Origin: a bacterium
GTDB taxonomy: Bacteria > Sysuimicrobiota > Sysuimicrobiia > Sysuimicrobiales > Thermofontiviventaceae
Length of the DNA: 64,000 bases
Reading direction: 5' to 3'
Assembly: GCA_030550015.1 (NCBI GenBank)
Contig: JAUQQG010000053.1
Coordinates: 1 to 64,000, forward strand
Shown: piece by piece, positions 4,433 to 55,153 of the stretch
Position numbering within the stretch: position 1 is the stretch's first letter
Layout: each line of letters opens with the position of its first letter
Notes under the pieces: generated by a model
The model's input: the letters and a program-made list of their open reading frames with translations, nothing else
Told to the model about the DNA's origin: nothing
Databases searched by the model: none
Position numbers and translations under genes: made by a program

Positions 4433-5865
4433 CAAGGAAGGTCGCCGTGCAGGAGAAGATCAATCTGCCCCCCGGGGCATCCATCCACTTCGTGGGTATC
4501 GGGGGAGCTGGGATGAGCGCAATCGCACGTCTCCTCCTCGCGTGGGGCTACCGCGTCTCTGGGTCGGACATTCGTGCCTCTGAGGTAACCCGGCGCCTAG
4601 AGGCCCTGGGGGCGCGGATCAGCATTGGGCATAGCCCGGAGAACGTGGGGGAGGCCGATCTGGTCGTGGTCTCTAGAGCTATCCCCGCAGGAAACCCCGA
4701 GGTCCTCTCCGCATCCTCCCGCGGGATTCCCATCCTCCACCGTGCAGAGGTACTCGCCCGGATCCTCCAGGGAGGGTTCAGCATCGCCGTGACAGGGACC
4801 CATGGGAAGACGACAACCGCTGCCATGGTCACGGCAGTTGCCATCGCGTCGGGCCGCGACCCAACGGCGCTCATTGGGGGAGAGGTTCCTGCCTTTGGGG
4901 GGAATGCGCGCGTGGGAAGCCTAGAGACCATCATTGCCGAGGTGGACGAGAGCGACGGATCGTTCCTCTACGTCACCCCTTCGGTGGCTGTGATCACCAG
5001 TCTCGAAGCCACCGACCACCTCGACACCTATGGTGACCTCCAGACTCTCCAGGACGCGTTCCGCAGGTTCCTCTCCACCGTGGGACCATCTGGGCTCGTA
5101 GTGGGGTGCGCGGATAGCCCGGCGGTGCGGGAGCTCCTGGGCGAGATCAAAGCGAGGACCGTGAGCTATGCCCTCCATGCTCCCGCGACCTACACTGCCG
5201 CGTCCGTGGTTCTCTCGGGGCGGTCCGCTAGGTTCCTGGCGGTGCGGGAAGGCCGGTCCTTAGGAGAGGTCATCCTCCAGGTTCCAGGGAGGCACAACGT
5301 GGTCAACGCCCTGGCAGCGCTTGCAACGTCCCTCGAGCTTGGGAGCTCTTTCCATCAGGCGCGAGAAGGGCTGGCCTCGTTCTCGGGCGTCCGGCGGCGC
5401 TTTGAAATCCAGGAGTGCGGGGAGATCCTCGTCGTGGACGACTATGCCCATAATCCAACAAAGGTAAAAGCCGCGCTCCGTACAGCCCGCGAGGGATGGC
5501 CAGGGCGCCGCATCATTGCAGTCTTCCAGCCCCACCGCTACAGCCGCACCCGCACCACCTTCGCCCAGTTTGGGCCCGTCTTTGGAGATGCAGATGAGGT
5601 CATTATCACAGAGATTTACCCGGCAGACGAGCCTCCTCTCCCGGGGGTGAGTGCTAGGCTTATTGTGGACGCGGTGCAGGCGTACCGCCCCGTTCGGTAC
5701 TGTCCATCCCTGGCGGAAGCGACAGAGGAAGTGTTGCGCCTCCTGCGGCCCGGGGACCTGATCCTGACCATGGGCGCAGGGGATGTGTGGAAGGTGGCTC
5801 GGGGAGTGGCAAACCGATTGTTGGGTATTGGTTCTTCGTCTGTCGTTTCACCCATGAACCCATGA
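4429..5865 (+). CDS. murC: MurC, UDP-MurNAc:L-alanine ligase
   Basis: A 478-residue Mur ligase adding L-alanine to UDP-MurNAc. The ATG at 4429 is chosen because it overlaps the murG stop in an ATGA and gives a normal N-terminus with GIGGAGM at residues 23-29. An in-frame extension to 4351 would run deep into murG. The P-loop TGTHGKTTT (122-130) is canonical, unlike that of the murD-like gene upstream. The DDYAHNPTK and FQPHRYSRT motifs of MurC are present in the C-terminal half. The order murG-murC-murB-ftsQ matches Gram-positive and deep-branching cell-wall clusters. Confidence 0.95.
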   Translation: MTRKVAVQEKINLPPGASIHFVGIGGAGMSAIARLLLAWGYRVSGSDIRASEVTRRLEALGARISIGHSPENVGEADLVVVSRAIPAGNPEVLSASSRGIPILHRAEVLARILQGGFSIAVTGTHGKTTTAAMVTAVAIASGRDPTALIGGEVPAFGGNARVGSLETIIAEVDESDGSFLYVTPSVAVITSLEATDHLDTYGDLQTLQDAFRRFLSTVGPSGLVVGCADSPAVRELLGEIKARTVSYALHAPATYTAASVVLSGRSARFLAVREGRSLGEVILQVPGRHNVVNALAALATSLELGSSFHQAREGLASFSGVRRRFEIQECGEILVVDDYAHNPTKVKAALRTAREGWPGRRIIAVFQPHRYSRTRTTFAQFGPVFGDADEVIITEIYPADEPPLPGVSARLIVDAVQAYRPVRYCPSLAEATEEVLRLLRPGDLILTMGAGDVWKVARGVANRLLGIGSSSVVSPMNP

Positions 5866-6782
5866 GGAAGAAGCTGGATATCCTGGAGCGAGAGATCCGG
5901 GCCATCGCCCGGGATGTGCGGCGGGATGAACCTCTCTCCCGACACGTCTCCTTCCATATTGGGGGACCGGCCGACCTTCTTGTCATCCCCCAGTCGCTGG
6001 AGGAGCTTCGCCGGGTGATGGCTTTCCTTTACAAGAAGGTGGAGATCCCTGTGGTTGTGCTGGGCCGAGGGAGCAACGTGCTTATCTCCGACCAGGGCGT
6101 CCGGGGCGTTGTGGTCAAGGTCGGGAGGGGGGTAGATGCCATCGCTTTTTCTGGAACATCGGTGGTTGCAGAGGCGGGGGCCTTCCTCCCTACCCTAGCC
6201 AACCAGGCTGCAAGCCGCGGCCTGTCCGGATTAGAGTTCTGCGCGGGCATCCCAGCTTCCCTCGGAGGTGCTGTGGTGATGAACGCTGGAGCCCACGGGC
6301 ACTGCATCGCGGAGGTGGTTCGGAGGGTGCACCTGATCACGCCTTCTGGAGAAGAGGTGGTCGAGGCGGAATCCCTGGGGTTTGGGTACCGCAGGAGCGT
6401 CCTGCAAGAGAAGAAGGCTGTTGTGGTCATGGCGGAGCTGGAGCTGGATGCGAGCACACCCGAGGAGGTCCGCGCGCGCACAGAGCGATGGCTTCGTCAA
6501 CGGAACACTACCCAGCCCATTGGCCCCCCGAGTTCGGGCTGTATCTTCCGGAATCCCCCGGGTGATCACGCGGGCCGCCTGATCGATCTTGCCGGTGCCA
6601 AGGGGTTGCAGATCGGCGGGGCGAGGGTCTCGGAGGTCCACGCGAACTACATCCTCAATGTTGGCGGGGCCACTGCTTCCGATGTCCTGGCCCTCATGGA
6701 GGAGATCATCCGCCTCGTCCGCAACCAGTTCGGCGTGGTCCTAGAGCCTGAGATCAAGCTTGTAGGCGATTTTTCAGGGTAG
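5862..6782 (+). CDS. murB: MurB, UDP-N-acetylenolpyruvoylglucosamine reductase
   Basis: A 306-residue FAD enzyme that reduces UDP-GlcNAc-enolpyruvate to UDP-MurNAc with NADPH. The start at 5862 forms an ATGA overlap with the murC stop. A longer reading to 5787 would lie within murC. Visible motifs are GRGSNVLISD (FAD binding), GIPASLGGAVVMNAGAHG, YRRSVLQ, and a C-terminal SEVHANYILN. The last motif and the GCIFRNPPGDHAGRLI segment are of the Gram-positive-like type II MurB. It completes the murG-murC-murB coupled series. Confidence 0.95.
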   Translation: MRKKLDILEREIRAIARDVRRDEPLSRHVSFHIGGPADLLVIPQSLEELRRVMAFLYKKVEIPVVVLGRGSNVLISDQGVRGVVVKVGRGVDAIAFSGTSVVAEAGAFLPTLANQAASRGLSGLEFCAGIPASLGGAVVMNAGAHGHCIAEVVRRVHLITPSGEEVVEAESLGFGYRRSVLQEKKAVVVMAELELDASTPEEVRARTERWLRQRNTTQPIGPPSSGCIFRNPPGDHAGRLIDLAGAKGLQIGGARVSEVHANYILNVGGATASDVLALMEEIIRLVRNQFGVVLEPEIKLVGDFSG

Positions 6783-6791
6783 GGGGATAAG

Positions 6792-7670
6792 GTGAGGAGC
6801 GAGGAAGGAGTCGCGAAGCGATATCCTGTGCCCCCGTGGATGGCGATGGAAAAGCCTATTCCGCCTGCCTCTTCTTCAGTGGGAAGGGAAAGGGACGAAG
6901 AGAGTGCAATGGGCCTCGCCCCAACGGAGGGGAGCGAGTTCGAACATCTCCTCTGGAGGCTTGGGCGCTTCTCCGTTGTCGTGGCGTTGCTCCTCTCCCT
7001 CGCATCCCTGCCCTTTTCGAGTTTCTTTGAGGTACGGGAGATCGAGGTGGAAGGGAACCTTCACCTTTCCCGGGAGGAGATTACTGCCCTGGCCAGGGTC
7101 CCGAAGGGTGTGAGTATCTTCCAGGTCGACCAGGGGACTCTGTTGGGACAGGTGGCTGCACACCCAAGGATCCGGAGGGCGACGGCCTTTCCTCGTCCAC
7201 CTCACACCCTCGTCATCCAGGTGGAAGAGCGACGCCCGTTCACCTTGATGGAATACCACGGGCGCACTTGGGTCCTAGACGAGGAGGGCGTGGTGATTGG
7301 GCGTGCCGGGGGCAACGAGCTGGCCCCGTCTTTCCCCGTGCGGCTGCAGGTTTCCTTTCTTTCCATTCCTGCGATCGCTCCTGGGAAACCCATCTCCTTG
7401 GAGGAGGTGCGTCACGCCTTAGAGATCCTCCACTCCCTCCCAAGGGAGGTAGAAGGAGAGGTAAGGGAACTTGTGGTAACCCGGGAAGGGTTCGTCCTGA
7501 GGATGCGCAATGGAATCCGGATCGACCTGGGGGGCTGGAAGGGGATCTCCCTGCGTCTTCACCGTCTCCCGCACGTGTTGCAGGCGGTACGCTCCTTGGA
7601 GGTGCCGGTGGAATCTGTGGACCTGCGCTTCGGGGAGACGGTGGTGATCAATCCGCAGGGCAAGCCGTAG
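6792..7670 (+). CDS. ftsQ: FtsQ/DivIB-type division protein with POTRA domain
   Basis: A 292-residue protein with a cytoplasmic N-terminus of about 55 residues. One hydrophobic helix follows (about 56-78, VVVALLLSLASLPFSSF), then an extracellular part starting with a POTRA-like segment (FFEVREIEVEGNLHLSREEI). FtsQ/DivIB links cytoplasmic Z-ring proteins to septal wall synthesis. It sits between murB and ftsA, the expected place. The GTG start at 6792 lies 9 bp after murB. Sequence conservation in this family is low, so the call rests on topology, the POTRA opening and position. Confidence 0.88.
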   Translation: MRSEEGVAKRYPVPPWMAMEKPIPPASSSVGRERDEESAMGLAPTEGSEFEHLLWRLGRFSVVVALLLSLASLPFSSFFEVREIEVEGNLHLSREEITALARVPKGVSIFQVDQGTLLGQVAAHPRIRRATAFPRPPHTLVIQVEERRPFTLMEYHGRTWVLDEEGVVIGRAGGNELAPSFPVRLQVSFLSIPAIAPGKPISLEEVRHALEILHSLPREVEGEVRELVVTREGFVLRMRNGIRIDLGGWKGISLRLHRLPHVLQAVRSLEVPVESVDLRFGETVVINPQGKP

Positions 7671-7775
7671 GACTGGGGAAAAGGAAGAAGGGAAAATCAC
7701 GTAGAATAACCCATGGTTCACCCAGCAAGGACTTAAGGGATTGGGAACGGGCCAGGATTCCCAAGGTTCCCGCTG

Positions 7776-7793
7776 AAACCCTGAAGGGTTTTT
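7776..7793 (+). terminator. Short hairpin with T-run upstream of ftsA
   Basis: AAACCC and GGGTTT flank a TGAA loop and are followed by two more T residues. The stem is only 6 bp (7 bp if the loop is reduced). It lies in the 146-bp gap between ftsQ and ftsA. It could be a weak terminator or attenuator, but it is too small to be sure. Confidence 0.25.
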
Positions 7794-7816
7794 GAGAGCC
7801 GACGGGAGGTGGGCGT

Positions 7817-9055
7817 GTGGCGAAGGCGCGGACAGTGGTGGGGCTGGATATAGGAACCACCAAGGTATGCGCCGTTGTGGGCGAGATCGATGAGGACGGA
7901 GAGACTCACATTGTAGGTGTGGGAACCGCGCCCTCACGAGGAGTCCGCAAGGGAGTCGTGGTGGACCTGGACAGCACGACCCATGCCATTGAGGAGGCAG
8001 TGGAACGGGCAGAGCGCATGGCGGGCACCAAGATCCTCTCTGCGTTCGTGGCAGCCAGCGGTGAACACATCAGCTCTCAGAATACGCGGGGGGTCGTCGC
8101 TGTGGCGCGCGGCGACCGCGAGATCGGGGATACTGACGTTGCCCGGGTGATCGAGGCCGCTCGTGTGAGCGCGCTTCCCGCCCAAGACCGGGAGATTATC
8201 CATCTCCTCCCCCGCGATTTCATTATCGATGGGCAGGACGGTGTGAAGAACCCAGTAGGAATGTATGGGAGCCGCCTTGAGGTGGAGGCCCACATTGTGA
8301 CAGGGACGAGCACGCTCCTGGCCAACCTCGTCAAGTGTGTCCAGCGCGCAGGGCTAGAGGTGGAGGAGCTCGTCCTCGAGCCCCTCGCGTCGAGCGAGGC
8401 GGTTCTGACCCCCACCGAGAAGGATCTTGGGGTTATCCTCGCAGATATTGGCGGGGGAACGAGTAGCTTGGGGATCTTCCTTGGCGGGGGGCTCTGCCAC
8501 ACGGCAGTGCTCCCGGTGGGGGGGAATCACTTGACCAACGACATCGCCGTTGGCCTGCGCACGCCCATGGCAGAGGCAGAGAAGCTGAAACTCCGACACG
8601 GCGCAGCCATGTCGGCCATGGCCGCGGAGGGGGAACTCATCGAAGTCGTGAACGTGGGAAACGCCAAACCGCGCATCCTCCCCAGGCGGATCCTCTGTGA
8701 GATTATCGAGCCAAGGCTCGTGGAGATTTTTGACCTGATCAAGGCGCAGATCAAACGGTCCGGGTACGGTGCGTTCCTTGCCGGTGGGATCGTCCTCACG
8801 GGAGGGACAGCTCTCTTGGAAGGGATCTCCGAGCTCGCGTCTCGAGAGCTCGATATGCCCGCGCGAGTAGGGGTGCCTGGGAACGTGATCGGCCTCATTG
8901 ATGCCGTAAATAGCCCGATCTATGCGACAGGCGTTGGCCTCGTTCTGTATGGGGCGAGGACGCAGAGAATCGGGCGGGTGAGCCGCACAGCCATCCGTGG
9001 CAGCGTCTGGGTGCGCCTTCGGAATTGGTTGCGGGAGTTCTTCCAAGTCGGCTAA
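7817..9055 (+). CDS. ftsA: FtsA, actin-like Z-ring membrane anchor
   Basis: A 412-residue actin-family ATPase that tethers FtsZ to the membrane. The phosphate-1 loop (VVGLDIGTTKVCAVVG) lies near residues 7-22. The ADIGGGTSSLGIF phosphate-2 and LAGGIVLTGG adenosine motifs follow at family spacing. The C-terminus (NWLREFFQVG) looks like the amphipathic membrane-targeting helix. The GTG start at 7817 has GGAGG upstream. It is followed by ftsZ after a 193-bp gap that contains an inverted repeat. Confidence 0.96.
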   Translation: MAKARTVVGLDIGTTKVCAVVGEIDEDGETHIVGVGTAPSRGVRKGVVVDLDSTTHAIEEAVERAERMAGTKILSAFVAASGEHISSQNTRGVVAVARGDREIGDTDVARVIEAARVSALPAQDREIIHLLPRDFIIDGQDGVKNPVGMYGSRLEVEAHIVTGTSTLLANLVKCVQRAGLEVEELVLEPLASSEAVLTPTEKDLGVILADIGGGTSSLGIFLGGGLCHTAVLPVGGNHLTNDIAVGLRTPMAEAEKLKLRHGAAMSAMAAEGELIEVVNVGNAKPRILPRRILCEIIEPRLVEIFDLIKAQIKRSGYGAFLAGGIVLTGGTALLEGISELASRELDMPARVGVPGNVIGLIDAVNSPIYATGVGLVLYGARTQRIGRVSRTAIRGSVWVRLRNWLREFFQVG

Positions 9056-9070
9056 TACCTCATGCACTGA

Positions 9071-9170
9071 GGAGTAAGCAGTGAGGAGTAAGAGAGCAGG
9101 AGACCACGCGGTAGACATGAACATTGCAGAAGGGTCTTTACTCCTCACTTCTCACTGCTCCCTCTTCAAG
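9071..9170. repeat. Degenerate GAGGAGTAAG repeat and inverted copy between ftsA and ftsZ
   Basis: The gap contains two tandem copies of a TGAGGAGTAAG-like unit (about 9067-9092). A reverse-complement copy, TTACTCCTCAC, followed by a related CTCACTGCTCCCTC segment lies around 9138-9168. GTGAGGAGTAA and TTACTCCTCAC match perfectly over 11 bp and could form a long imperfect stem in the transcript. No promoter or gene was recognised in the gap. Confidence 0.5.
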
Positions 9171-9248
9171 GATCACGGTTGGGAGCAGCTCAGCTTGTTG
9201 GCCCCGGAAGGGGATGCAGAGAATTCTCTCTACAAGGGAGGCGAGGAG

Positions 9249-10307
9249 ATGATCCATCCGGAGCATGATCTCGGCCGGTATGCCACGATTAAGGTCGTAG
9301 GGGTAGGGGGCGGTGGGAGCAACGCGGTGAACCGGATGATCCACGCAGGACTGCGTGGGGTCGAGTTCATCGCCGTCAACACAGATGCTCAGGCCCTTGC
9401 TCTCTCGAACGCCGACCGGAAGATCCACATTGGAGCCAAAATCACCAAAGGTCTTGGGGCTGGTGGGGATCCGGCGATCGGTAGGCAGGCCGCTGAGGAG
9501 AGTCGAGATGAACTCTATGAGGTCCTCCAAGGTTCTGACATGGTCTTCATCACCTGCGGCATGGGTGGGGGTACAGGGACGGGGGGCGCTCCGGTGATCG
9601 CCGCGATCGCTCGAGAAGTGGGAGCGCTCACCATTGGCGTCGTCACGAAACCGTTCACCTTTGAGGGTCGGCGGCGTATGACCACAGCGGAGGAGGGGAT
9701 CCGGGCACTCAAACAGCAGGTGAACACCCTCATTACCATCCCCAACGACCGGTTGCTCCAGATTGTGGACAAGTCGGTGACCATGATCGAAGCCTTCCGG
9801 GTCGCCGATGACGTGCTCCGCCAGGGCGTCCAGGGCATTGCAGACTTGATCACCGTGCCCGGCCTGATCAACCTGGACTTCGCGGATGTGCGCACGGTGA
9901 TGGCCGAGGCCGGCGCTGCCCTCATTGGCATCGGTGTCGCCTCGGGGGAGAACCGGGCGGTGCGGGCCGCTCAGGCGGCCATCAGCAGCCCTCTCTTGGA
10001 GACCTCGATGGACGGAGCAAGAGGGGTTCTCTTCAACGTCACAGGCGGCCTGGATTTGGGGCTCCTTGAGGTGAGCGAGGCTGCGGAGATCATCCAAAAG
10101 GCAGCCGATCCCGATGCCAACATCATCTTCGGTGCGGTGATCGATGAGAAGCTCGAGGGCGAGGTCCGGATCACGGTCATCGCGACAGGCTTCGATCAAG
10201 CCAAGCCGAAGGAGGAGCAGATCCAGGCGATCGCTGAGCAGGTGGCCACGAATAGCCATATCTCCGTGGAGGACCTGGAGATCCCCGCCTTCCTACGGAA
10301 GAGGTAG
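9249..10307 (+). CDS. ftsZ: FtsZ, tubulin-like division GTPase
   Basis: A 352-residue FtsZ, which polymerises into the Z-ring. The start at ATG 9249 is preferred over an in-frame extension to 9081 because GGGAGG lies just upstream and the protein then begins at the usual place, shortly before the [10 protein letters not shown] nucleotide loop. The tubulin signature GGGTGTG is at 106-112. The T7-type segment and the C-terminal conserved peptide [12 protein letters not shown] are present. There is almost no variable linker, so the protein is compact compared with many FtsZs. Confidence 0.97.
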
Positions 10308-10329
10308 GGATCGCACGAGGACAAAAGCG

Positions 10330-11403
10330 ATGAGCGTGGAGTTCTTGTGGCGTCTTGAGGAGATCCGGCAGATCATCGACCAGGTCTTCCCCGTTACCGA
10401 GATCTGGTTCGATGGAGGAAAGCCCATCTTCGCCGTCTACCTTGCCGGGGACACGAAGGCTCGCTTCTTGGCGTTGAAGGAACGCCTGGAGACCCTGGGC
10501 TACCTCCCCTTACTCCGGTACCGCGATGGGATGGCCGTGATCGCCCTGATGCCCAAACCACCGCGGGGGCAGTGGCGCTGGCAAGTGAACCTGCTCCTCT
10601 TCGTGGGAACCCTCCTCACTACCTTTCTTGCAGGGTATTTCAATTTCCGGGAGGATGCCCTTGCAGGGTACCTCCCGAGCGCGGCGATGGGTGGGCTCAC
10701 CTTTTCCCTCTCTCTGATGCTCATCCTCGTGTGTCACGAGATGGGCCATAAGGTCATTTCCGTCTTGCGTGGGATTGACGCGAGCTTGCCCTACTTCATT
10801 CCTGTGCCCCCGCTCCCGGGTGGGCTTTCCATCGGGACCCTGGGGGCAGTCATTGTCACGAGAACTCCCGCCCCCAACCGCGATGCACTGATCGACCTCG
10901 GTGCTTCGGGTCCCATTGCAGGGTTCTTGGTGACGATCCCTATCTTGGCCATTGGGATCTCCCGCTCCGTAGTCCTCACACAACCCATCCCAGGTCCTAC
11001 CCTCCCTACACCCTTACTCATCGACCTGATGCTTCGCTGGATCTTGCACCCCCCCGAGAACGCGGTGGTACTTGTCCATCCCATGGTCTTCGCCGGGTGG
11101 ATCGGGCTTCTCGTTACCGCTTTAAACCTCCTCCCCGCGAGTATGCTGGACGGGGGGCACGTGGCACGATCCCTCCTGGGGAGTCGTCTTCATATGATCG
11201 TTTCTTACGGAGCTGTCGCCCTGGCGATCCTGCTCGGGTACTGGCCCATGGGATTGTTGATCCTCTTCATGATCCGCCGCGGCCATCCGGGTCCTCTCGA
11301 CGATATCTCGACGGTCAGCCCGTTCCGAAGGGTGGTTGCGCTTGCCCTCGTGGTGATCTTCATCCTGAGCGCGGTCCCTCTCCTCCCCATTCGGATGTTC
11401 TAG
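10330..11403 (+). CDS. Site-2-protease-family (M50) membrane metalloprotease
   Basis: A 357-residue polytopic protein. Its zinc motif HEMGH is at 136-140 and the distant metal-binding motif LLPASMLDGGH has its aspartate at 274. This is the standard S2P arrangement. About seven to eight hydrophobic helices are visible after an N-terminal soluble part of roughly 80 residues. The sequence around the active site (GMGG-like helix, then HEMGHK) resembles the EGY/plant-type S2P branch rather than RseP, and no PDZ domain is seen. The substrate is unknown. It follows ftsZ by 22 bp and may be co-transcribed with it. Confidence 0.88.
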   Translation: MSVEFLWRLEEIRQIIDQVFPVTEIWFDGGKPIFAVYLAGDTKARFLALKERLETLGYLPLLRYRDGMAVIALMPKPPRGQWRWQVNLLLFVGTLLTTFLAGYFNFREDALAGYLPSAAMGGLTFSLSLMLILVCHEMGHKVISVLRGIDASLPYFIPVPPLPGGLSIGTLGAVIVTRTPAPNRDALIDLGASGPIAGFLVTIPILAIGISRSVVLTQPIPGPTLPTPLLIDLMLRWILHPPENAVVLVHPMVFAGWIGLLVTALNLLPASMLDGGHVARSLLGSRLHMIVSYGAVALAILLGYWPMGLLILFMIRRGHPGPLDDISTVSPFRRVVALALVVIFILSAVPLLPIRMF

Positions 11404-11623
11404 TGGCTCAGCAAAAGTCTTTCATGCATGCTTTGCCGAAGGCTCCTCCTGAAGAACCAGGCCTTTTGGCGAAACTCTGTCAAAAAAGATTCCGCCGCGG
11501 CCACGTAGAACTTATCCAGGAAAAGATCATGCAAAGGACCAGGCTGGGAATCCAGCGGAGTGAGGAAGCCGCGAGGCTCTCCCCCAGAGCGGACATGGGC
11601 GAGGCCAACCTTTCTGGGAAGCA

Positions 11624-47419: not shown

Positions 47420-48094
47420 ATGGGGAGGGCGATCCTGACGTTGCTCTGGAAGGACCTGCGCGTCGAGCTCAGGACCAAGGAGATCCTGACCACCATGATG
47501 GTCCTGGCTCTGCTCATCCTTGTGATCCTGAACGTGGCCATGGGACAAAACGTCGTGACCGTCAAGCTGGCTGCATCCGGGGTCCTCTGGGTAGTCTTCA
47601 CCTTCGCTGCAACCCTGGGCCTGAGCAGGGTTTTCCTTGTCGAGAAGGAGCGGGGCCAGCTCAGCGGCATCCTCCTTGCCCCCATGGACAGGAGCGCGAT
47701 CTTCCTGGGGAAGATGATCGGGAGCACCATCCTCGTCCTCCTTGTGGAGGCCGTAGCCCTTCCTGTCTTCGTGGTGTTGTTCAACTTCCCTCTTGGGGGA
47801 CGGGTCGGTCCCCTCCTCCTTCCCCTGTTTCTGGGGACGGTTGGGTTTATTGCGGTGGAGACCCTGTTCTCGGCGATCTCGGCGCAGACACGCCTCCGGG
47901 AGATCCTCCTTCCCCTCCTGGCGTTCCCCGTGGCGATGCCGGCTCTGGTGGGAGCGGTCGGTGCGACAGCGAAGGTGCTGGATGGCCTTCCCCTTCAGTC
48001 CGCCGCGCCTGAGTTGCAACTCCTGGTGGCCTTTGATATACTCTTCGTGGCCATTGGGCTGGTTGTCTTCGAGTACGTCGTGGAGGAGGAATGA
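47420..48094 (+). CDS. ccmB: CcmB, haem exporter permease
   Basis: A 224-residue membrane protein with six hydrophobic helices. The motif EKERGQLSGILLAPMDRSAIFLGK is typical of CcmB. The 66-bp gap after ccmA contains the GACGTTTGC-type repeat in reverse orientation. Its stop overlaps the ccmC ATG (ATGA). Confidence 0.92.
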   Translation: MGRAILTLLWKDLRVELRTKEILTTMMVLALLILVILNVAMGQNVVTVKLAASGVLWVVFTFAATLGLSRVFLVEKERGQLSGILLAPMDRSAIFLGKMIGSTILVLLVEAVALPVFVVLFNFPLGGRVGPLLLPLFLGTVGFIAVETLFSAISAQTRLREILLPLLAFPVAMPALVGAVGATAKVLDGLPLQSAAPELQLLVAFDILFVAIGLVVFEYVVEEE

Positions 48095-48768
48095 TGGCCA
48101 GAGGCTTTGATGATCGGGCCATTGCCTGGATTCTCCTCGTCGCAATGGTTGTCTCCCTGTACATGGTCTTCATGTACGTCCCCACAGAACGAGAGATGGG
48201 CATCATCCAGCGGATCTTCTACTTCCATGTCCCCCTTGCGTGGATTTCCTTCCTGGCCTTCCTGATGGTATGTATCGCAGGGATTCAGTACTTGCGGCAG
48301 CGGTCCCGTTGGTGGGATGCCCTTGGTACAAGTGCCGCCGAGATCGGGGTGCTCTTTAGCACACTCGTCCTCATCACTGGTTCGATCTGGGCAAAGCCCA
48401 TTTGGGGGACGTGGTGGACGTGGGAGCCCAGGCTCGTGACCTTCCTGATCCTCTGGTTCATCTACGTGGGCTACCTCTTGTTGCGTGCCGCCGCAGGTGA
48501 TGACGAGCGGAAGGCGCGGCTCGCTGCAGTTGTAGGGATCGTGGGATTTCTAGATGTCCCCCTGGTCTTCTTCTCTGCCCGCCTCCTCCGAGGGCTGTCA
48601 CCGGTGGTGTTCACGCGCCAGGGTGCCGGCCTTGCTCCACCGATGCTGTGGACGCTTCTCGTCTCCCTGGCCACCTTCACGCTCCTCTTCGTTCTCTTGC
48701 TTCGTCAGAGGCTTTTCCTAGAGCTTGCAAGGGATGAAGTAGAATCGCTCAAGGAGCTGGTACCGTGA
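48091..48768 (+). CDS. ccmC: CcmC, haem-handling membrane protein
   Basis: A 225-residue protein with six hydrophobic helices and the tryptophan-rich motif WGTWWTWEPRLVTFLILW. The haem-binding histidine candidate is in IFYFHVPLAW. A second expected histidine in the later loop is not obvious. CcmC loads haem onto CcmE. It overlaps ccmB and ccmD at both ends (4 bp each). Confidence 0.93.
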   Translation: MMARGFDDRAIAWILLVAMVVSLYMVFMYVPTEREMGIIQRIFYFHVPLAWISFLAFLMVCIAGIQYLRQRSRWWDALGTSAAEIGVLFSTLVLITGSIWAKPIWGTWWTWEPRLVTFLILWFIYVGYLLLRAAAGDDERKARLAAVVGIVGFLDVPLVFFSARLLRGLSPVVFTRQGAGLAPPMLWTLLVSLATFTLLFVLLLRQRLFLELARDEVESLKELVP

Positions 48769-48950
48769 AGAACCTGACGCTGCTGTTCTTTGCTTATCTC
48801 ATGATCTGGATCGGCCTGTTTGCCTACCTGCTCTTTCTCATCCAGCGGGGGCTGGCGCTGTCAAGGGAGATTGCGGCGTTGAAGCAAGCGCTTGCTGCAG
48901 GGAACAAGGGCGACCCTGAGAAGAGAAAGGACCGAGGGGAGACTCCATGA
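48765..48950 (+). CDS. ccmD: CcmD-like small membrane protein
   Basis: A 61-residue protein with one membrane helix (about 5-28) and a charged cytoplasmic tail. It lies between ccmC and ccmE with a GTGA overlap. CcmD helps release haem-CcmE from CcmABC. Sequence conservation is low, so the call is by position and topology. Confidence 0.75.
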   Translation: MKNLTLLFFAYLMIWIGLFAYLLFLIQRGLALSREIAALKQALAAGNKGDPEKRKDRGETP

Positions 48951-49025
48951 GAGGGACCCCGGGCGGATGGGAAAAGACCTTTTGGAAGGGCACTGAGAAA
49001 CTCATCCGGTTGTAGGGGGGTAGCG

Positions 49026-49418
49026 ATGCGAGGGAAACGGTGGAAATTCCTGGTCGTCGTCCTGGCCATTGTGCTCGTGCTGTCGTACCTGGTGTATGCC
49101 GGGGTCCGCAGGGCTTCGGTGTACTACCTTACCGTGAGCGAGCTCCTGGTCCAGGGGAACCGGAGCATGGATCTCCCCGCCCGCGTTAGCGGGAAGGTTG
49201 TCCCTGGTTCGATCCAGTGGGACCAGCTCCGCCAGTCCCTTCGCTTCCGCATCACGGATGGGCAGAAGGTCCTCTTTGTACGCTACCAGGGTGTCGTCCC
49301 GGATATTTTCGGTGACGGCAAGGAGGTTGTGGTGGAGGGGCGCCTCAGCCCGCAAGGGGAGTTCATGGCCACAACCCTCCTGGCCAAGTGCCCCACGAAG
49401 TACGAGCCAGCGGAGTAG
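49026..49418 (+). CDS. ccmE: CcmE, periplasmic haem chaperone of the CxxxY type
   Basis: A 130-residue OB-fold protein with an N-terminal membrane anchor (about 8-26). The residue that binds haem covalently in E. coli is a histidine in HxxxY. Here the site reads C122-P-T-K-Y126, the CxxxY variant known from some archaea and delta-type proteobacteria. GIQWDQ, LRFRITDG, VRYQGVVPDIF and VVVEGRL are the usual family blocks. It passes haem to apocytochromes such as the dihaem cytochrome c encoded next. ccmF, ccmG and ccmH are not in the window. Confidence 0.92.
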   Translation: MRGKRWKFLVVVLAIVLVLSYLVYAGVRRASVYYLTVSELLVQGNRSMDLPARVSGKVVPGSIQWDQLRQSLRFRITDGQKVLFVRYQGVVPDIFGDGKEVVVEGRLSPQGEFMATTLLAKCPTKYEPAE

Positions 49419-49608: not shown

Positions 49609-50484
49609 ATGCGGATTCAAATCGGTCCTTTGATTGTGACGGCTCTGGCAGTGATTGTGTTGCTCCTGATTGCCTTCCCTCCCACGGTGGATTTCTCCCG
49701 GGCGCAGGTAGGTCTCAACACGCCTCTCCCGTTGTCCAGGGGGGAGCAGCGCCTTGTCCCTGGTAAGCCCTCGGCGGTCCGCGGGGAGAAGGTCTTCCAG
49801 AAACAGTGCGCCCTGTGTCATGGTCCGGAGGGACGAGGGGATGGTCCTGCGGCGAGCAAATTGGTGACGCCGGGGCGTAGCCTCCTCACCGATTTCCTGG
49901 GGGTCTTCGGGATCAAGGTCAAAGCCGAGCAGTTGCCTTCCCGCCCGGCGAACTTCCACAACCTGGACGCCCAGCGGCTCAACTCCCCCTTCCTGAACTA
50001 TGAGACGGTCACGCTGGGTCGCCCGCATACAGCGATGCCCGCGTTCGGCCCGAGAGCACCTTATGGCGTCAACAAAGGCGCCATGTTGACCGATCAGGAG
50101 CGCTGGGATGTGGTCTTCTTTGAATGGGAGTTCCAAACCTCCGCGGAGCGCCTAGCGCGAGCCAAGGAGATCTACGAGAACCGGGTGATCGAAGGGAACA
50201 CTTGCGCAAGTTGCCACGGGGTTGCTGGGGACGGCCGAGGGCCGCGGGGTGCGGAGATGGCCGGGAAATTGTGGACGTGGGCGGCGGGACGAGGGCCAGG
50301 GATTTTCACCGACATCAACCACCTGGGCCAACGAAAGCCCTCCGACCTCTTCCAGGTGATCGAGGATGGGAGTCCCAACGGCTTGATGCCCTCGTACAAG
50401 GGGAAACTCTCCGAGGATGAGATGTGGATGCTTGTGGAGTATGTCTATACCTTCGTCTACGAACCGAAAGGGCAGGTGAAGTAA
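49609..50484 (+). CDS. Dihaem cytochrome c, membrane-anchored
   Basis: A 291-residue protein with an N-terminal hydrophobic anchor (about 8-26) and two c-type haem sites, C67-ALCH and C199-ASCH. The likely methionine ligands lie in AMPAFGP (first half) and GLMPSYKGKL (second half). Each half looks like a class I cytochrome c domain. It precedes the Rieske gene by 5 bp, so it should be the cytochrome c subunit that takes electrons from the Rieske centre. Its maturation proteins (ccmABCDE) are encoded directly upstream. Confidence 0.9.
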   Translation: MRIQIGPLIVTALAVIVLLLIAFPPTVDFSRAQVGLNTPLPLSRGEQRLVPGKPSAVRGEKVFQKQCALCHGPEGRGDGPAASKLVTPGRSLLTDFLGVFGIKVKAEQLPSRPANFHNLDAQRLNSPFLNYETVTLGRPHTAMPAFGPRAPYGVNKGAMLTDQERWDVVFFEWEFQTSAERLARAKEIYENRVIEGNTCASCHGVAGDGRGPRGAEMAGKLWTWAAGRGPGIFTDINHLGQRKPSDLFQVIEDGSPNGLMPSYKGKLSEDEMWMLVEYVYTFVYEPKGQVK

Positions 50485-50489
50485 AACGG

Positions 50490-51131
50490 ATGGAAGAGCG
50501 CGTCAACCGGAGGACGTTTCTCAAACTCCTTATGGGCGTGCCGGCTTTTGGTGCCATCGCAGCAGCGCTTTCCCCGTTGCTCCGGTACCTCAAGCCCAAT
50601 CTCCCACCCTATCAGCTGAACCCGCTGACCGTTGGGGACAAACCCCATGGATCCCCGGTAGTGGCGGCAACCCTCTCGGAGCTTCGGGAGCCCTGGAGTT
50701 ACAAGTACTTTACCTTCGTCCAGCAGTATCCCCAGTACACGCCTGAAGGGTTCAAGAACGCCACCGTTCCAGGGGTCGTCATCCGCCTCCCCCGGAAGGT
50801 TGTCCTTCCCTGGGAGTGGGCGGGCGAAAAGCGGAAGGAGAGCGATATCGTCGCCTTCTCGCGCATCTGTCCCCATCTCGGGTGCATCTTCAACTACGTT
50901 CCTGAGTGGAAGGAGATCACATCTGGGTATGGAGGCTATGTTCCGCCCCCGGATCGTCGCCATGCGCTCATGGGCTGCCCATGCCATCTCAGCATCTATG
51001 ATCCTGCCGATCCCGATGTCCCAGGGAGGGTCCTCTCCGGTCCAGCGCCGCGACCTCCTCGGACCTTCCTGTTTGCGGTGAAGGAGGGGGACATTGTCAT
51101 CACCGACGTGGAGCCCGGTGGGATCGCCTAG
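50490..51131 (+). CDS. Rieske iron-sulfur protein of a cytochrome b complex (Tat signal)
   Basis: A 213-residue Rieske protein. The N-terminus NRRTFLKLLMG followed by a hydrophobic stretch is a twin-arginine signal that also anchors the protein. The 2Fe-2S ligands and disulfide lie in C127-PHLGC132 and C163-PCH166. An insert of about 30 residues between the two boxes and a rather long segment at 60-95 are noticeable. It should accept electrons from quinol at the Qo site of the cytochrome b encoded next. tatA is encoded at 57423. Confidence 0.93.
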   Translation: MEERVNRRTFLKLLMGVPAFGAIAAALSPLLRYLKPNLPPYQLNPLTVGDKPHGSPVVAATLSELREPWSYKYFTFVQQYPQYTPEGFKNATVPGVVIRLPRKVVLPWEWAGEKRKESDIVAFSRICPHLGCIFNYVPEWKEITSGYGGYVPPPDRRHALMGCPCHLSIYDPADPDVPGRVLSGPAPRPPRTFLFAVKEGDIVITDVEPGGIA

Positions 51132-51175: not shown

Positions 51176-52315
51176 ATGGGAAAGTTGGGAGTCGTTGGGG
51201 AATGGATCAAAGACCGGAAGGAACACCTCGATCTCTTTGACGAGACCAACGTCCATAGACAGGGGAATCCCTTTTATCTCCTCGGCCCGATGGTGTACTA
51301 CTTCTGGCTCATCACCATCGTGAGTGGTCTCCTCCTTATGATCTGGTACGAGCCCACCACTGCCGGTGCATACAACTCCATCCTGCACATCCAGCACGAG
51401 ATCCCTCTTGGCTGGTTGATCCGCGGCCTCCACAAGTACGGCGCTGATGCCTTGATCATCGCCATTACCCTGCGCATCTACCGTATGTACTTCCTGGGGG
51501 AGTACAAGAAGCCAGGGGAGCTCTCCTGGATGATCGCGTTCGCCTCGCTGATCCTGGCGATGATTTCTGGGATCACAGGCTATCTCCTCATCTGGAACCA
51601 GCGTGCCTTCTGGGCGGCCAAGGTCGTGCTCACGGTCCCCATCTACTTTGACGAGCTCCCCCTCATTGGGCAGACGAGGTTTGGTTCCGCTATCGCTTAC
51701 ATCTTCCTCGGGGGCCCGGCCATCGGCCAGGCAACCCTCACCAGGTTCTATATGATCCATTTCAGCATCTCTGTGATTGCCCTCATCCTCACGGAGATCT
51801 TCTTCCAGCGGACCCGGCGCAAGCGGTTGAATATGTCGCTTGCAAGTGTCCTGGTCTTCTTCCTCATGCTCGCCGCGATCAGCTACCTCCTCCCAGCGGA
51901 ACTGGGGAGGAGAGCTAACCCAGACCGGACGCCCCTTCCTATTCTCTCGGACTGGTACTTCCTGGCCCTCTACCAGTTCGTCAAGTACACGCCGCCCCTG
52001 TGGGCTGGTCTTGGGCCGGGGTTGCTCATCGCCTTCGGGATGCTTGTCCCCTTTCTGGATAGGAGCAAAGGGAGACGGCCTTCGGAGCGTCCCTTCTTTA
52101 CCGTGGTGGGGATCATGGCCCTCGTCTACTTCCTTGTGTTCACAGTCCTGATTCTGTTCAATATCGCTGTCATCGAGCGCGATCCACCAATCATCCTAGC
52201 CATCACCGTCGTGGTCCTTGCACTTGGACTCCTTTGGGAGATCCGCTACCGGAGGCGACAGCTTGGACAGCTCGTGTCTTCGCCGAAGCCTGCCGAGAAC
52301 CCGGCCTCGGAGTAG
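51176..52315 (+). CDS. Cytochrome b (first of two), fused b6-IV type, lacking haem bH ligands
   Basis: A 379-residue cytochrome b with about eight helices. His86 (GLHKYGAD, helix B) and His195 (MIHFSIS, helix D) match the two haem bL ligands. The haem bH positions are not histidine: residue 100 is Arg (TLRIYRMY) and there is no His in the rest of helix D (Phe209/Phe210). Cys35 of b6-type haem ci is also absent. The Qo motif reads S258-D-W-Y261, close to PEWY/PDWY. It should still form a Qo site but cannot pass electrons to a normal haem bH. GGGAGG precedes the ATG. Confidence 0.88.
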   Translation: MGKLGVVGEWIKDRKEHLDLFDETNVHRQGNPFYLLGPMVYYFWLITIVSGLLLMIWYEPTTAGAYNSILHIQHEIPLGWLIRGLHKYGADALIIAITLRIYRMYFLGEYKKPGELSWMIAFASLILAMISGITGYLLIWNQRAFWAAKVVLTVPIYFDELPLIGQTRFGSAIAYIFLGGPAIGQATLTRFYMIHFSISVIALILTEIFFQRTRRKRLNMSLASVLVFFLMLAAISYLLPAELGRRANPDRTPLPILSDWYFLALYQFVKYTPPLWAGLGPGLLIAFGMLVPFLDRSKGRRPSERPFFTVVGIMALVYFLVFTVLILFNIAVIERDPPIILAITVVVLALGLLWEIRYRRRQLGQLVSSPKPAENPASE

Positions 52316-52391: not shown

Positions 52392-52652
52392 ATGTGGCGG
52401 CATCTATGGTTTTATCTCACCTTCCTGATTGCTGTTCTCGCCCTTTCTCGACTGATCGGGGCAGTGGAGGAGGCGCTGGCGAGAGGGACTGTCCAAGCAT
52501 GGGCACGTGCAGCAATCGTTGTCGCCGCCCTTTTTGTTTCCTTCCTGTACCTGGGGTTTACCCTCTACGAAGTAGATCGCAGGGCTGGAAGGGTGCGACG
52601 GCCCCTCCGGCTGTATGAGTGGTGGATCCGGGCTCGGGGAACGCAGAGGTAA
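52392..52652 (+). CDS. Small two-helix membrane protein of the cytochrome b locus
   Basis: An 86-residue protein with two hydrophobic helices (about 5-25 and 38-60) and a basic C-terminal tail. I do not recognise a family. It starts a group of three genes ending with the cytochrome b-ferredoxin fusion, which suggests an accessory subunit of that complex. Confidence 0.65.
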   Translation: MWRHLWFYLTFLIAVLALSRLIGAVEEALARGTVQAWARAAIVVAALFVSFLYLGFTLYEVDRRAGRVRRPLRLYEWWIRARGTQR

Positions 52653-52656
52653 GGAG

Positions 52657-52845
52657 ATGACGCAGGGGAAGCTGTTGGGTCTGATCCTGGTGCTGTCTGC
52701 GATCGTCGCCGCCGCGAGCGGGGCGATTGTCTACGGGGAGTTCTCCAGAAAGCAGCTCGTTGTCGGAGCCTCCCTTGGGATCATCTTCTTGGCCTATGGA
52801 TTGATCCTGATCATTCTCCGGAAGGGGCGATGGATCCAGGAGTGA
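52657..52845 (+). CDS. Small two-helix membrane protein of the cytochrome b locus
   Basis: A 62-residue protein with two hydrophobic helices separated by GEFSRKQLVVG. The ATG at 52657 has AAGGAG in front; an upstream in-frame ATG at 52615 lies inside the previous gene. No family is recognised. It is probably a small subunit or assembly factor of the neighbouring cytochrome b complex. Confidence 0.6.
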   Translation: MTQGKLLGLILVLSAIVAAASGAIVYGEFSRKQLVVGASLGIIFLAYGLILIILRKGRWIQE

Positions 52846-52909: not shown

Positions 52910-54067
52910 TTGTACAAGCGCATCCTGAAGAACTTGCAGCGAGCCACCCTCCAAGTGGATGTCCTGCTCAACCGCGTTCTGCCTTCTGATTGGAACCCGT
53001 TGTATTACACTGGAGGGCTGTCGAACCTCTTCCTGACCATCCTGATCCTTTCAGGGATCTTTCTCTTCTTCTACTACGTGCCGGATCCCAACGAGGCCCA
53101 CCGCTCCATCACCTTCATCACGGAGCGCGTCCCGTACGGGAGGATCATCCGCGGGGTTCACCGCTATGCCGCCGATGGGTTCATGGTAGCGATTTTCCTC
53201 CACCTTTTCCGGAACTGGTTCACGGAGCGTTACCTTTTCTCCCGGGATATCCCCTGGATCTCCGGGATGTTCCTCCTTGGCTTCGCTGGGTTCGTGGGAA
53301 TCACCGGATACTTCATGGCGTGGGACGACCGGGCGCAGGCCCTCCTGGCAATGACCCTGCATATGCTTCGGTCGATCCCGCTTGTTGGCCCGTGGCTCAA
53401 CGAGCTCCTCCTGGGAGGAGGGGGAGTCGGCGAACGCACCCTCGTGCGTTTTCTCTTCCTCCACGTGGTCCCCGCCGTGACCCTCTACCTCCTGCTCTGG
53501 TGGCATTATATCCGCATCCGTCACCCCAAAATCTGGCCACCGGCGGTCTGGGTGCTGTTCAGCCTGGGGCTTGTCTTTCTCCTCAGTTCCCTCGTGCCTG
53601 TGGTGAGCGGGGTGCCCGCCTCCCCCACGGCACAGCCGCAGGTGATCCCCCTCGACTTCTTATATATGTGGCCTTACTGGTTGCTGAAGTACGTTGGACC
53701 GATCTGGGCGATCGTGCTCGGGTTCGTCCTGTTCAGTTATGGAATGTACATCCCTTACCAACTCCGGGAGAAGCCGGAGGTCATGGGCGTCCGTCACGCA
53801 GGGGTAGCCCAGGTCATTGAGCCGAACTGCACGGGATGCGAGCTTTGTTACTATGACTGCCCCTACAACGCGATCATCATGGTCCCCTCGCCAAGGCCTG
53901 GGCAGACCAAAGCAGCGCAGAACCGCAAGCTGCTTGCCGTGGTGATTGAGTCGCGGTGCGTAGAATGCGGCATCTGCATTGGCGCTTGCCCGTTCCAGGC
54001 TTTAGAACTCCCTCGTTTGATGGAGAATCAAGTGCTTGAAAGGGTGCTGGCAGCATGTCGGAGCTAG
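52910..54067 (+). CDS. Cytochrome b (second of two) fused to a C-terminal 2[4Fe-4S] ferredoxin
   Basis: A 385-residue fusion. The cytochrome b part keeps all four haem histidines: His84 and His98 in helix B, His185 and His199 in helix D (14-residue spacing). The Qo motif is degraded; the PEWY region reads P247-L-D-F-L-Y. The C-terminal domain holds two ferredoxin motifs, C307/C310/C313/C317 and C350/C353/C356/C360. The iron-sulfur domain would face the cytoplasm if helix count is as in cytochrome b. The TTG start has GAAGGAGG 9 bp upstream. It overlaps the MvhD-like gene by 13 bp. Confidence 0.88.
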   Translation: MYKRILKNLQRATLQVDVLLNRVLPSDWNPLYYTGGLSNLFLTILILSGIFLFFYYVPDPNEAHRSITFITERVPYGRIIRGVHRYAADGFMVAIFLHLFRNWFTERYLFSRDIPWISGMFLLGFAGFVGITGYFMAWDDRAQALLAMTLHMLRSIPLVGPWLNELLLGGGGVGERTLVRFLFLHVVPAVTLYLLLWWHYIRIRHPKIWPPAVWVLFSLGLVFLLSSLVPVVSGVPASPTAQPQVIPLDFLYMWPYWLLKYVGPIWAIVLGFVLFSYGMYIPYQLREKPEVMGVRHAGVAQVIEPNCTGCELCYYDCPYNAIIMVPSPRPGQTKAAQNRKLLAVVIESRCVECGICIGACPFQALELPRLMENQVLERVLAACRS

Positions 54068-54543
54068 AGCACAGTTCCTCTCTGCAATCCCAGGAAAAGC
54101 CCACCCTGAAGGTGGTAGGGTTTGTCTGCGACTGGAGCGTGGATCTCAAAGGTGCGCTCACGGAGGACGGGAGGCTCCGGGAGGTTCCGAACGTCTACGT
54201 GATGATGATCCCCTGTTCGGGGTTCATCCGGCCCTCCTGGCTGGAGTTCGCCCTGAAGAACGGAGCTGACGGAGTGTTTGTCTGCGGGTGCCCGTATGGG
54301 GACTGCCTGAACCGGGAGGGGAATTTTCTCATCAGGAACAGGATCCAGCAGATGCGCCGCCGCCTCCAGCGTCAGAGGATCGATCCAGAGCGGGTAACGA
54401 TGCTGGCTTATGGGCTGCATGATCGGGAGGGATTCCTCTTGGCGATCAAGGCTTTCCTGGAGGATCTGCGCAGGCGGGTCGTGCCAGGAGGCCAGGCGGT
54501 GACGAGGGCCGCTCAGCAAAGCAGCCCCAACGAAATCTCTTGA
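54055..54543 (+). CDS. MvhD-like iron-sulfur protein (hydrogenase/heterodisulfide-reductase-associated family)
   Basis: A 162-residue protein of the MvhD/FlpD family. Family motifs are VGFVCDWS near the N-terminus, MMIPCSGFIRPSWL, GADGVFVCGCPYGDC and REGNFLIRNR. MvhD carries a 2Fe-2S cluster and passes electrons between hydrogenase or formate dehydrogenase and HdrA. The usual N-terminal CCNWCS is reduced to a single Cys (VCDWS). Translation overlaps the cytochrome b-ferredoxin fusion, so it is likely its soluble redox partner. No hdr or mvh genes are in the window. Confidence 0.82.
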   Translation: MSELEHSSSLQSQEKPTLKVVGFVCDWSVDLKGALTEDGRLREVPNVYVMMIPCSGFIRPSWLEFALKNGADGVFVCGCPYGDCLNREGNFLIRNRIQQMRRRLQRQRIDPERVTMLAYGLHDREGFLLAIKAFLEDLRRRVVPGGQAVTRAAQQSSPNEIS

Positions 54544-54621: not shown

Positions 54622-54738
54622 ATGGAGATGATCCGGCGGAAGAGTGTAGGGACGATCTTGGCTTATGCCCTTTTCTACATCGTGTTCTTCGCCCTCCTCT
54701 TGCTCGTGGCCTCGTTTGGGCTCATCGCCGAAGCTTGA
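54622..54738 (+). CDS. 38-residue single-helix membrane protein
   Basis: A tiny gene starting ATGGAGATGATCCGG; ATG 54628 is an alternative giving 36 residues. The product has a basic N-terminus (MIRRKS) and one helix (TILAYALFYIVFFALLLLVA). It follows a TATAAT box at 54596-54601 and precedes the cupredoxin gene. Its size and shape resemble small subunits of oxidases or bc-type complexes (for example subunit IIa), but nothing more specific can be said. A ribosome site is weak. Confidence 0.5.
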   Translation: MEMIRRKSVGTILAYALFYIVFFALLLLVASFGLIAEA

Positions 54739-54781: not shown

Positions 54782-55153
54782 ATGCGATTTGTTCGCGCCA
54801 CGATCCTCGCTGTCGCCGCCCTTGTGCTGCTCGCAGCCTGCGCACGCCAGCAGGCCCAGCCACCTGCCCCAGCACCATCGGCAGCGGGTGAGATCGCGAT
54901 TACCGAGAACGAGTGGTCGATCCAACCGAAGGAGATCCGTGCAAAACCAGGGAAGGTTACCTTTGTGATCAAGAACCAGGGCGCCGTAGAGCACAACTTC
55001 GTGATCGAAGGAGTTGGGGAGGTCGACAAGATTGCGCCGGGGGAGACGAAGAAGCTGGAGGTGACTCTCCAACCGGGGACCTACAAGGTTGTGTGTAATC
55101 TCCCCGGTCACCAGGAAGCTGGCATGGAGGCCACACTCACCGTCTCAGAGTGA
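54782..55153 (+). CDS. Cupredoxin lipoprotein (plastocyanin/azurin-like)
   Basis: A 123-residue lipoprotein. The lipobox LLAAC gives a lipidated Cys at residue 20, followed by an Ala/Pro/Gln-rich linker. The copper ligands are visible: His in VEHNFVIEG, then Cys, His and Met in VVCNLPGHQEAGM. This is a type I blue-copper site. It may carry electrons from the dihaem cytochrome or Rieske complex to a terminal acceptor outside this window. GAAAGGAGG precedes the ATG. Confidence 0.9.
   Translation: MRFVRATILAVAALVLLAACARQQAQPPAPAPSAAGEIAITENEWSIQPKEIRAKPGKVTFVIKNQGAVEHNFVIEGVGEVDKIAPGETKKLEVTLQPGTYKVVCNLPGHQEAGMEATLTVSE

Follow-up and report, generated by a model that had tools for sequence, protein, structure and literature searches.

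The cytochrome b-ferredoxin fusion and the MvhD-like protein encoded side by side in the window (the whole stretch of 64,000 nucleotides analysed, part of contig C86 in a draft genome of 2.65 Mb) close a conserved operon for a Rieske/cytochrome b complex. On balance, we consider the pair to be the cytoplasmic arm of an asymmetric complex of this type, with quinol bifurcation as the favoured though less certain net reaction. The more unusual part of the locus is the other cytochrome b of the operon (cytb1), which is without N-side heme ligands and was absent from the preliminary description of this DNA. The genes and motifs are as follows.

49609-50484, + strand: diheme c-type cytochrome (Pfam Cytochrom_C, E 2.6e-20; two CxxCH motifs)
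50490-51131, + strand: Rieske [2Fe-2S] protein whose N-terminus is twin-arginine-like (Pfam Rieske, E 4.6e-4; NCBIfam PetC-like, E 6.6e-10)
51176-52315, + strand: cytb1, full-length cytochrome b (Pfam Cytochrome_B, E 3.7e-32, plus Cytochrom_B_C)
52392-52652, + strand: small two-helix membrane protein of 86 aa (two hydrophobic helices; conserved position between cytb1 and the fusion)
52657-52845, + strand: small two-helix membrane protein of 62 aa (from hydrophobicity; position kept in many relatives)
52910-54067, + strand: cytochrome b-ferredoxin fusion of 385 aa (from Pfam, alignment, and the His and Qo region)
53828-53860, + strand: first CxxCxxCxxxC motif, C307-C317 of the fusion (invariant in the ortholog alignment)
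53957-53989, + strand: second CxxCxxCxxxC motif, C350-C360 of the fusion (invariant in the ortholog alignment)
54055-54543, + strand: MvhD/FlpD-family protein of 162 aa (FlpD, E 4e-26; phmmer to MvhD 5odc_D, E 1.2e-17)
54622-54738, + strand: 38-aa single-helix protein with the C-terminal sequence ASFGLIAEA (from its sequence; no known family assigned)
54782-55153, + strand: cupredoxin-like lipoprotein (Pfam Cupredoxin_1, E 6.5e-16)

The operon was compared across the order to which the genome belongs, which is, in our reading, the lineage named CSP1-3/Sysuimicrobiota or Sysuimicrobiia in published work. On contigs that are long enough, it consists of the diheme cytochrome c, the Rieske protein, cytb1, one or two small membrane proteins, the fusion and the MvhD-like protein, often followed by a cupredoxin and then a polyprenyl synthase gene. 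This gene order is conserved in 22 named contigs, and the fusion and MvhD-like pair never stands alone in the order. A Rieske protein is therefore encoded together with a cytochrome b and a c-type cytochrome, as in bc complexes. The diheme cytochrome c keeps its place as the first gene and has two CxxCH motifs in 17 of 18 orthologs; it is likely the P-side electron acceptor of the complex. Both cluster motifs of the Rieske protein are present in 13 of 13 orthologs. Its longest open reading frame begins at 50424, and the ATG at 50490 is the more likely start. The cupredoxin-like protein is a possible P-side carrier; homologs occupy the same place in some relatives and are found in part of the order. 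In some families of the order, the genes directly after the MvhD-like one encode a COX1-type oxidase subunit and a cytochrome c with a single heme. Neither an HdrA flavin protein nor, by reading of the open reading frames and family scans, an NAD(P) oxidoreductase (FAD) subunit was found in the operon. Genes resembling CcmB, CcmC and CcmE (cytochrome c maturation) lie upstream at 47420-49418 and are near the operon in many relatives. The ASFGLIAEA ending recurs downstream of the MvhD-like gene in the relative L018.

Cytochromes b of bc complexes have two pairs of His ligands, and in each ligand helix the first His belongs to the P-side heme (bP or bL) and the second to the N-side heme (bN or bH). 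We checked these positions by alignment to cytochrome b6 structures. In cytb1, the P-side ligands H86 and H195 are retained in all orthologs with coverage, and the SDWY motif of the Qo site is invariant wherever the region is covered. The N-side ligands are gone. The first is R100 in all covered orthologs, and position 209 is Phe, Tyr, Leu, Met, or Trp and never His (F209 in the window); loci L040 and L060, which hold fusion sequences, are excluded from these counts. The window copy has six His in total and no Cys, and cytb1 may use a different, unusual heme ligand. Of the two bis-His hemes b per cytochrome b, cytb1 therefore has ligands for the P-side heme only, and the fusion has both pairs: His84, His98, His185 and His199 are all present in 23 of 23 orthologs. 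In the ortholog alignment, the PEWY motif of the fusion is replaced by LDFLY, VDWLF or similar sequences, and W-D-(D/E)-R-A-Q takes the place of the absent cd1 motif W-(G/D/N)-Q-x-x-(F/Y)-W. The Qo site of the fusion appears eroded from its sequence, with an acidic residue retained that leaves its inactivity not provable. The losses in cytb1 and the fusion look complementary, because a cytb1 homodimer would lack any route across the membrane. The same genome encodes another Rieske/cytochrome b complex on contig C112, whose cytochrome b has all four His and PEWY. This gene is at 7354-8430 of L039 (G000:C112), with a Rieske-like match adjoining.

In the fusion, a Cytochrome_B N-terminal domain (PF00033, E 3.5e-28) is followed at the C-terminus by a 4Fe-4S dicluster domain (Fer4_7, E 5e-9), and the protein has no PetD/Cytochrom_B_C match. 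It starts with a TTG codon just downstream of a strong Shine-Dalgarno-like stretch, and its identity across the order is 59-70% in the alignment. These domains and the invariant cysteine motifs bear out the preliminary description, in which two CxxCxxCxxxC motifs were fused to a four-His cytochrome b. The 13 bp overlap with the MvhD-like gene reported there also holds, with the reading frame starting at 54055 and the fusion ending at 54067. The pairing is conserved in relatives: the MvhD-like gene adjoins the fusion in 30 of 30 loci of the order and in 22 of 22 named contigs. Because the fusion is found in 37 genomes and the adjacent gene is conserved with it across the order, a frameshift or misassembly as the origin of the fusion is excluded. 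Hydropathy predicts six helices in the fusion. An AlphaFold2 model from 15 sequences agrees, and it was used for the helix count only since its mean pLDDT was low (57.7). With six helices, the iron-sulfur domain would be located on the cytoplasmic side beside heme bN. Toward its C-terminus, HdrA2 is collinear with the iron-sulfur/MvhD arm (profile positions 571-640 and then 642-769), and the ferredoxin domain scores no better against HdrA2 than against generic dicluster ferredoxins. Of these observations, the collinearity with MvhD alone hints at a possible derivation specifically from HdrA.

The MvhD-like protein matches the FlpD profile with 91.8 bits against a curated cut-off of 22.3. Four cysteines (Cys25, Cys54, Cys79, and Cys84) are kept in every member of the order that is readable there and would be enough in number for one [2Fe-2S] cluster. 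The second Cys of the CNWC motif is Ser or Ala in 23 of 23 orthologs, so the canonical N-terminal CxxC is reduced to one Cys. The earlier count of two lost among three N-terminal cysteines is right in comparison with archaeal CCxxC proteins; against the canonical MvhD of the same genome, which has FxCNWC, only one is lost.

A search of 43 genomes of the order found the fusion in 37. The carriers are little-studied bacteria of soil, groundwater, and hot springs. Most of the named relatives in the order are recorded as Armatimonadetes/Armatimonadota or as 'Terrabacteria group bacterium ANGP1', and some as Bacillota; Bacterium HR32 and a single uncultured bacterium are also among them. The genome G195, which belongs to a different phylum, has the same core order, from the diheme cytochrome c through two small membrane proteins to the MvhD-like gene. 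Its cytb1 keeps SDWY and the P-side pair of His but neither N-side ligand, the first of which is replaced by Arg; its fusion is 420 aa long, and its MvhD-like protein has the same four cysteines. The main text of a description of the phylum CSP1-3/Sysuimicrobiota (PMC11604079) does not mention cytochromes or complex III, and no published description of the fusion or of the heme-ligand loss was found in the open-access literature. The locus is best called a new arrangement within the Rieske/cytochrome b complexes.

From the complementary losses and the shared operon, we infer that cytb1 and the fusion may form a heterodimer. In cytb1 alone, the quinol electron would stop at heme bP with no further path across the membrane, and the fusion alone apparently would have no working site for quinol oxidation; together they would make a complete path. 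Quinol would be oxidised at the Qo site of cytb1. One electron would pass through the Rieske protein and cytochrome c to the oxidase. The other would move from heme bP of cytb1 to heme bP of the fusion and on to its heme bN, and from there through the two [4Fe-4S] clusters and the [2Fe-2S] cluster of MvhD to a carrier in the cytoplasm; a quinone close to bN could take it as well or instead. The net reaction would most likely be quinol-based bifurcation, in which the drop to O2 would lift electrons to a cytoplasmic acceptor. Inward electron flow along the same wire would also be possible. We infer this putative path, its direction, the cluster types and the partner from sequence, and their probabilities differ. 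A paired, asymmetric transmembrane wire that serves the aerobic chain is fairly likely. Outward flow to a cytoplasmic acceptor is favoured with modest confidence by analogy with anammox complexes, for which NAD(P)H formation through quinol bifurcation has been proposed (PMC12954380), and we place it close to, and slightly under, an even chance. The complete scheme is plausible at a tentative level: a natural obligate heterodimer would divide Qo and bN between its halves, every low-potential electron would cross from bP to bP and exit by the fused [4Fe-4S] clusters and MvhD, and aerobic respiration would drive the quinol bifurcation.

The mitochondrial complex III is a relative of this enzyme. 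It normally consists of two identical halves, and here the cytochrome halves look specialised. Electron crossing between the halves in nature has so far been argued mainly from engineered enzymes. If the scheme is true, one half would be unable to work alone, so that transfer between the monomers would be compulsory and could readily be tested. The cytoplasmic iron-sulfur exit would then give aerobic bacteria a simple route from quinol to a low-potential reductant. A close functional parallel is the engineered cross-inactivated bc1 complex (B-B and BS-B fusions with G158W/H212N; PMC4330944). One of its halves has a working Qo site but, through a mutated bH ligand, no heme bH; in the other half heme bH is intact and the Qo site is blocked. 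This enzyme turns over by bL-bL transfer (PMC4330944), and its electrons can pass only from one bL heme to the other, as proposed here. However, it is man-made and has no iron-sulfur exit, whereas the present candidate is natural and conserved across an order.

The anammox complexes of Kuenenia (Kuste4569-4574 and Kustd1480-1485; PMC12954380) share the Rieske/cytochrome b core and c-type cytochromes with this operon. They also have a cytoplasmic iron-sulfur module, which is proposed there to take the low-potential electron of bifurcation. In the model of these complexes, the dimer is symmetric and contains b6 and subunit IV, and the FAD/NAD(P) module is a protein of its own. In contrast, the clusters here are fused to a second cytochrome b, the soluble end is MvhD-like, and cytb1 is without bN ligands. 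Compared with the cytochrome b6f and bc1 complexes (1vf5, 1q90, and 1be3), the fold, the heme-ligand positions of both cytochromes b and the Rieske partner are alike. The differences are that the two cytochromes b are dissimilar, that cytb1 has one ligand pair and that the fusion lacks the PetD/Cytochrom_B_C region by profile match.

Inward flow from a soluble donor is a serious rival, and we regard it as a real possibility that falls short of probable. A low-potential donor such as ferredoxin, an HdrA-type protein or another flavoprotein would reduce MvhD, and electrons would then reach heme bN of the fusion by way of the [4Fe-4S] clusters and continue to quinone or the oxidase branch, with the Rieske protein and cytb1 performing an ordinary quinol-cytochrome c step alongside. 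MvhD passes electrons into HdrA in known complexes (PMC9012536; PMC12350162). In a Sporomusa Hdr-MetVF assembly lacking a known membrane partner, no protein is more membrane-associated than MvhD, which was 75% membrane-bound and is proposed as a membrane linker (PMC9430772). The present genome encodes HdrA and MvhD, and the single-chain relatives described below, which are beside oxidases without a Rieske protein, also fit electron entry. However, entry leaves the loss of the heme bN ligands of cytb1 in all relatives unexplained, and HdrA is absent from most carriers. At a threshold of E<=1e-60, HdrA was found in 11 of the 43 genomes of the order, six of which have the fusion, and gave no match in 31 of the 37 fusion-bearing genomes. 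The carriers without HdrA include G003 (estimated 100% complete) and G017 (97% complete, in four contigs), and in all 31 the linked MvhD-like protein is the only FlpD-family match. HdrA occurs without the fusion in G004, G021, G029, G032 and G038, and a contig break may explain G038. The distribution of HdrA against the fusion gives p=0.0025 in Fisher's exact test, uncorrected for kinship.

HdrA as a universal partner is rejected by this pattern of presence and absence in the order. What accompanies the fusion is the operon for the Rieske protein and cytochrome c, along with heme-copper oxidases. Of the 37 fusion-bearing genomes, 36 have COX1, and it is absent from the four genomes of genus g5 that lack the fusion; the contrast between COX1 and HdrA rests largely on this one genus. 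Since HdrA is mostly absent and COX1 is nearly always present, the partner is not generally HdrA and the setting is aerobic respiration. The earlier proposal of a link between the quinone pool and a soluble acceptor keeps its membrane cytochrome b joined to an iron-sulfur/MvhD arm, and gives up an Hdr partner in general. The arm resembles that of HdrABC-MvhAGD (5odc and 7bkb) in outline, with two [4Fe-4S] clusters followed directly by MvhD and with sequence homology in MvhD itself. Unlike in that complex, the partner is a membrane cytochrome b and not the HdrA flavin protein, which the genomes usually lack, and the N-terminal CxxC of MvhD is down to one Cys. We do not claim membership in the Hdr-MvhD bifurcating complexes because of the missing HdrA and the altered N-terminal cysteines.

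Genomes of several other phyla encode the three parts, a cytochrome b, a pair of [4Fe-4S] motifs and an MvhD-like domain, in a single polypeptide. In 19 aligned members, the four heme-ligand His are invariant, Cytochrome_B and Fer4 match all 19, and FlpD matches 17. HdrA is absent from 11 of 17 single-chain genomes outside the order. The genes are mostly in COX2-COX1-SCO operons from reading of the open reading frames, with Pfam confirmation in the three loci tested; SCO and oxidase subunits are nearby, and some loci also have synthase genes for heme o or heme a. L113 (G149:C4) and L116 (G289:C73) are exceptions, as these divergent single chains are beside a gene for a 544-555-aa membrane protein and no oxidase. 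The cytochrome b-ferredoxin-MvhD module in the oxidase operons of these phyla appears to be an unnamed family. For single chains beside oxidases without a Rieske protein, a plain wire fits better than bifurcation at a Qo site. The same neighbourhood would suit a role in oxidase maturation, in which the wire brings cytoplasmic electrons across the membrane for the reduction of SCO or copper sites or for heme insertion and not for catalysis. Within the order, however, the fusion is tied to the Rieske protein, cytb1 and cytochrome c, a constant partnership that argues for catalysis, and an SCO gene was not seen in the order operon. We consider maturation unlikely.

The one named relative of the single-chain form that was found is on the Defluviimonas sp. 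plasmid NZ_CP156080. Its protein, annotated only as 'cytochrome b N-terminal domain-containing protein', is alignable over 92% of a single-chain cytochrome b-[4Fe-4S]x2-MvhD protein. The gene adjoins those for oxidase subunit I, heme o synthase, and SCO. Unlike the order operon, this form is one chain without a Rieske protein or cytb1 nearby. Many single-chain fusions (L036, L108, L110, L114 and others) carry an extra C-terminal helix and a domain that looks periplasmic. L111, L112, and L115 have a short separate gene after the single-chain fusion in place of the C-terminal extension.

In its narrow form, the preliminary reading would have the pair tie the quinone pool to one kind of partner in particular, either an Hdr-type flavin-bifurcating complex or a hydrogenase or formate dehydrogenase; this genome does have, on contig C125, genes for two HdrA, a canonical MvhD, Etf and a VhuG-like [NiFe] small subunit, but most fusion carriers have neither HdrA nor a second FlpD protein and the five genomes with HdrA and no fusion point the same way, which makes this version very unlikely. 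Contig C125 ends just past the VhuG-like gene, and no large subunit was seen on it. In L005 (G000:C125:45000-56611), positions 3082-11581 hold an HdrC/B-like gene, EtfAB, a 660-aa membrane Fe-S protein, HdrA, the canonical MvhD, and the VhuG-like subunit. In L004 (G000:C125:20000-39999), positions 5087-8488 encode a 1133-aa HdrA2-type protein with MvhD fused at its C-terminus. An HdrC/B-like protein and EtfAB are encoded downstream of it, and citrate synthase and succinate dehydrogenase/fumarate reductase-like genes are near.
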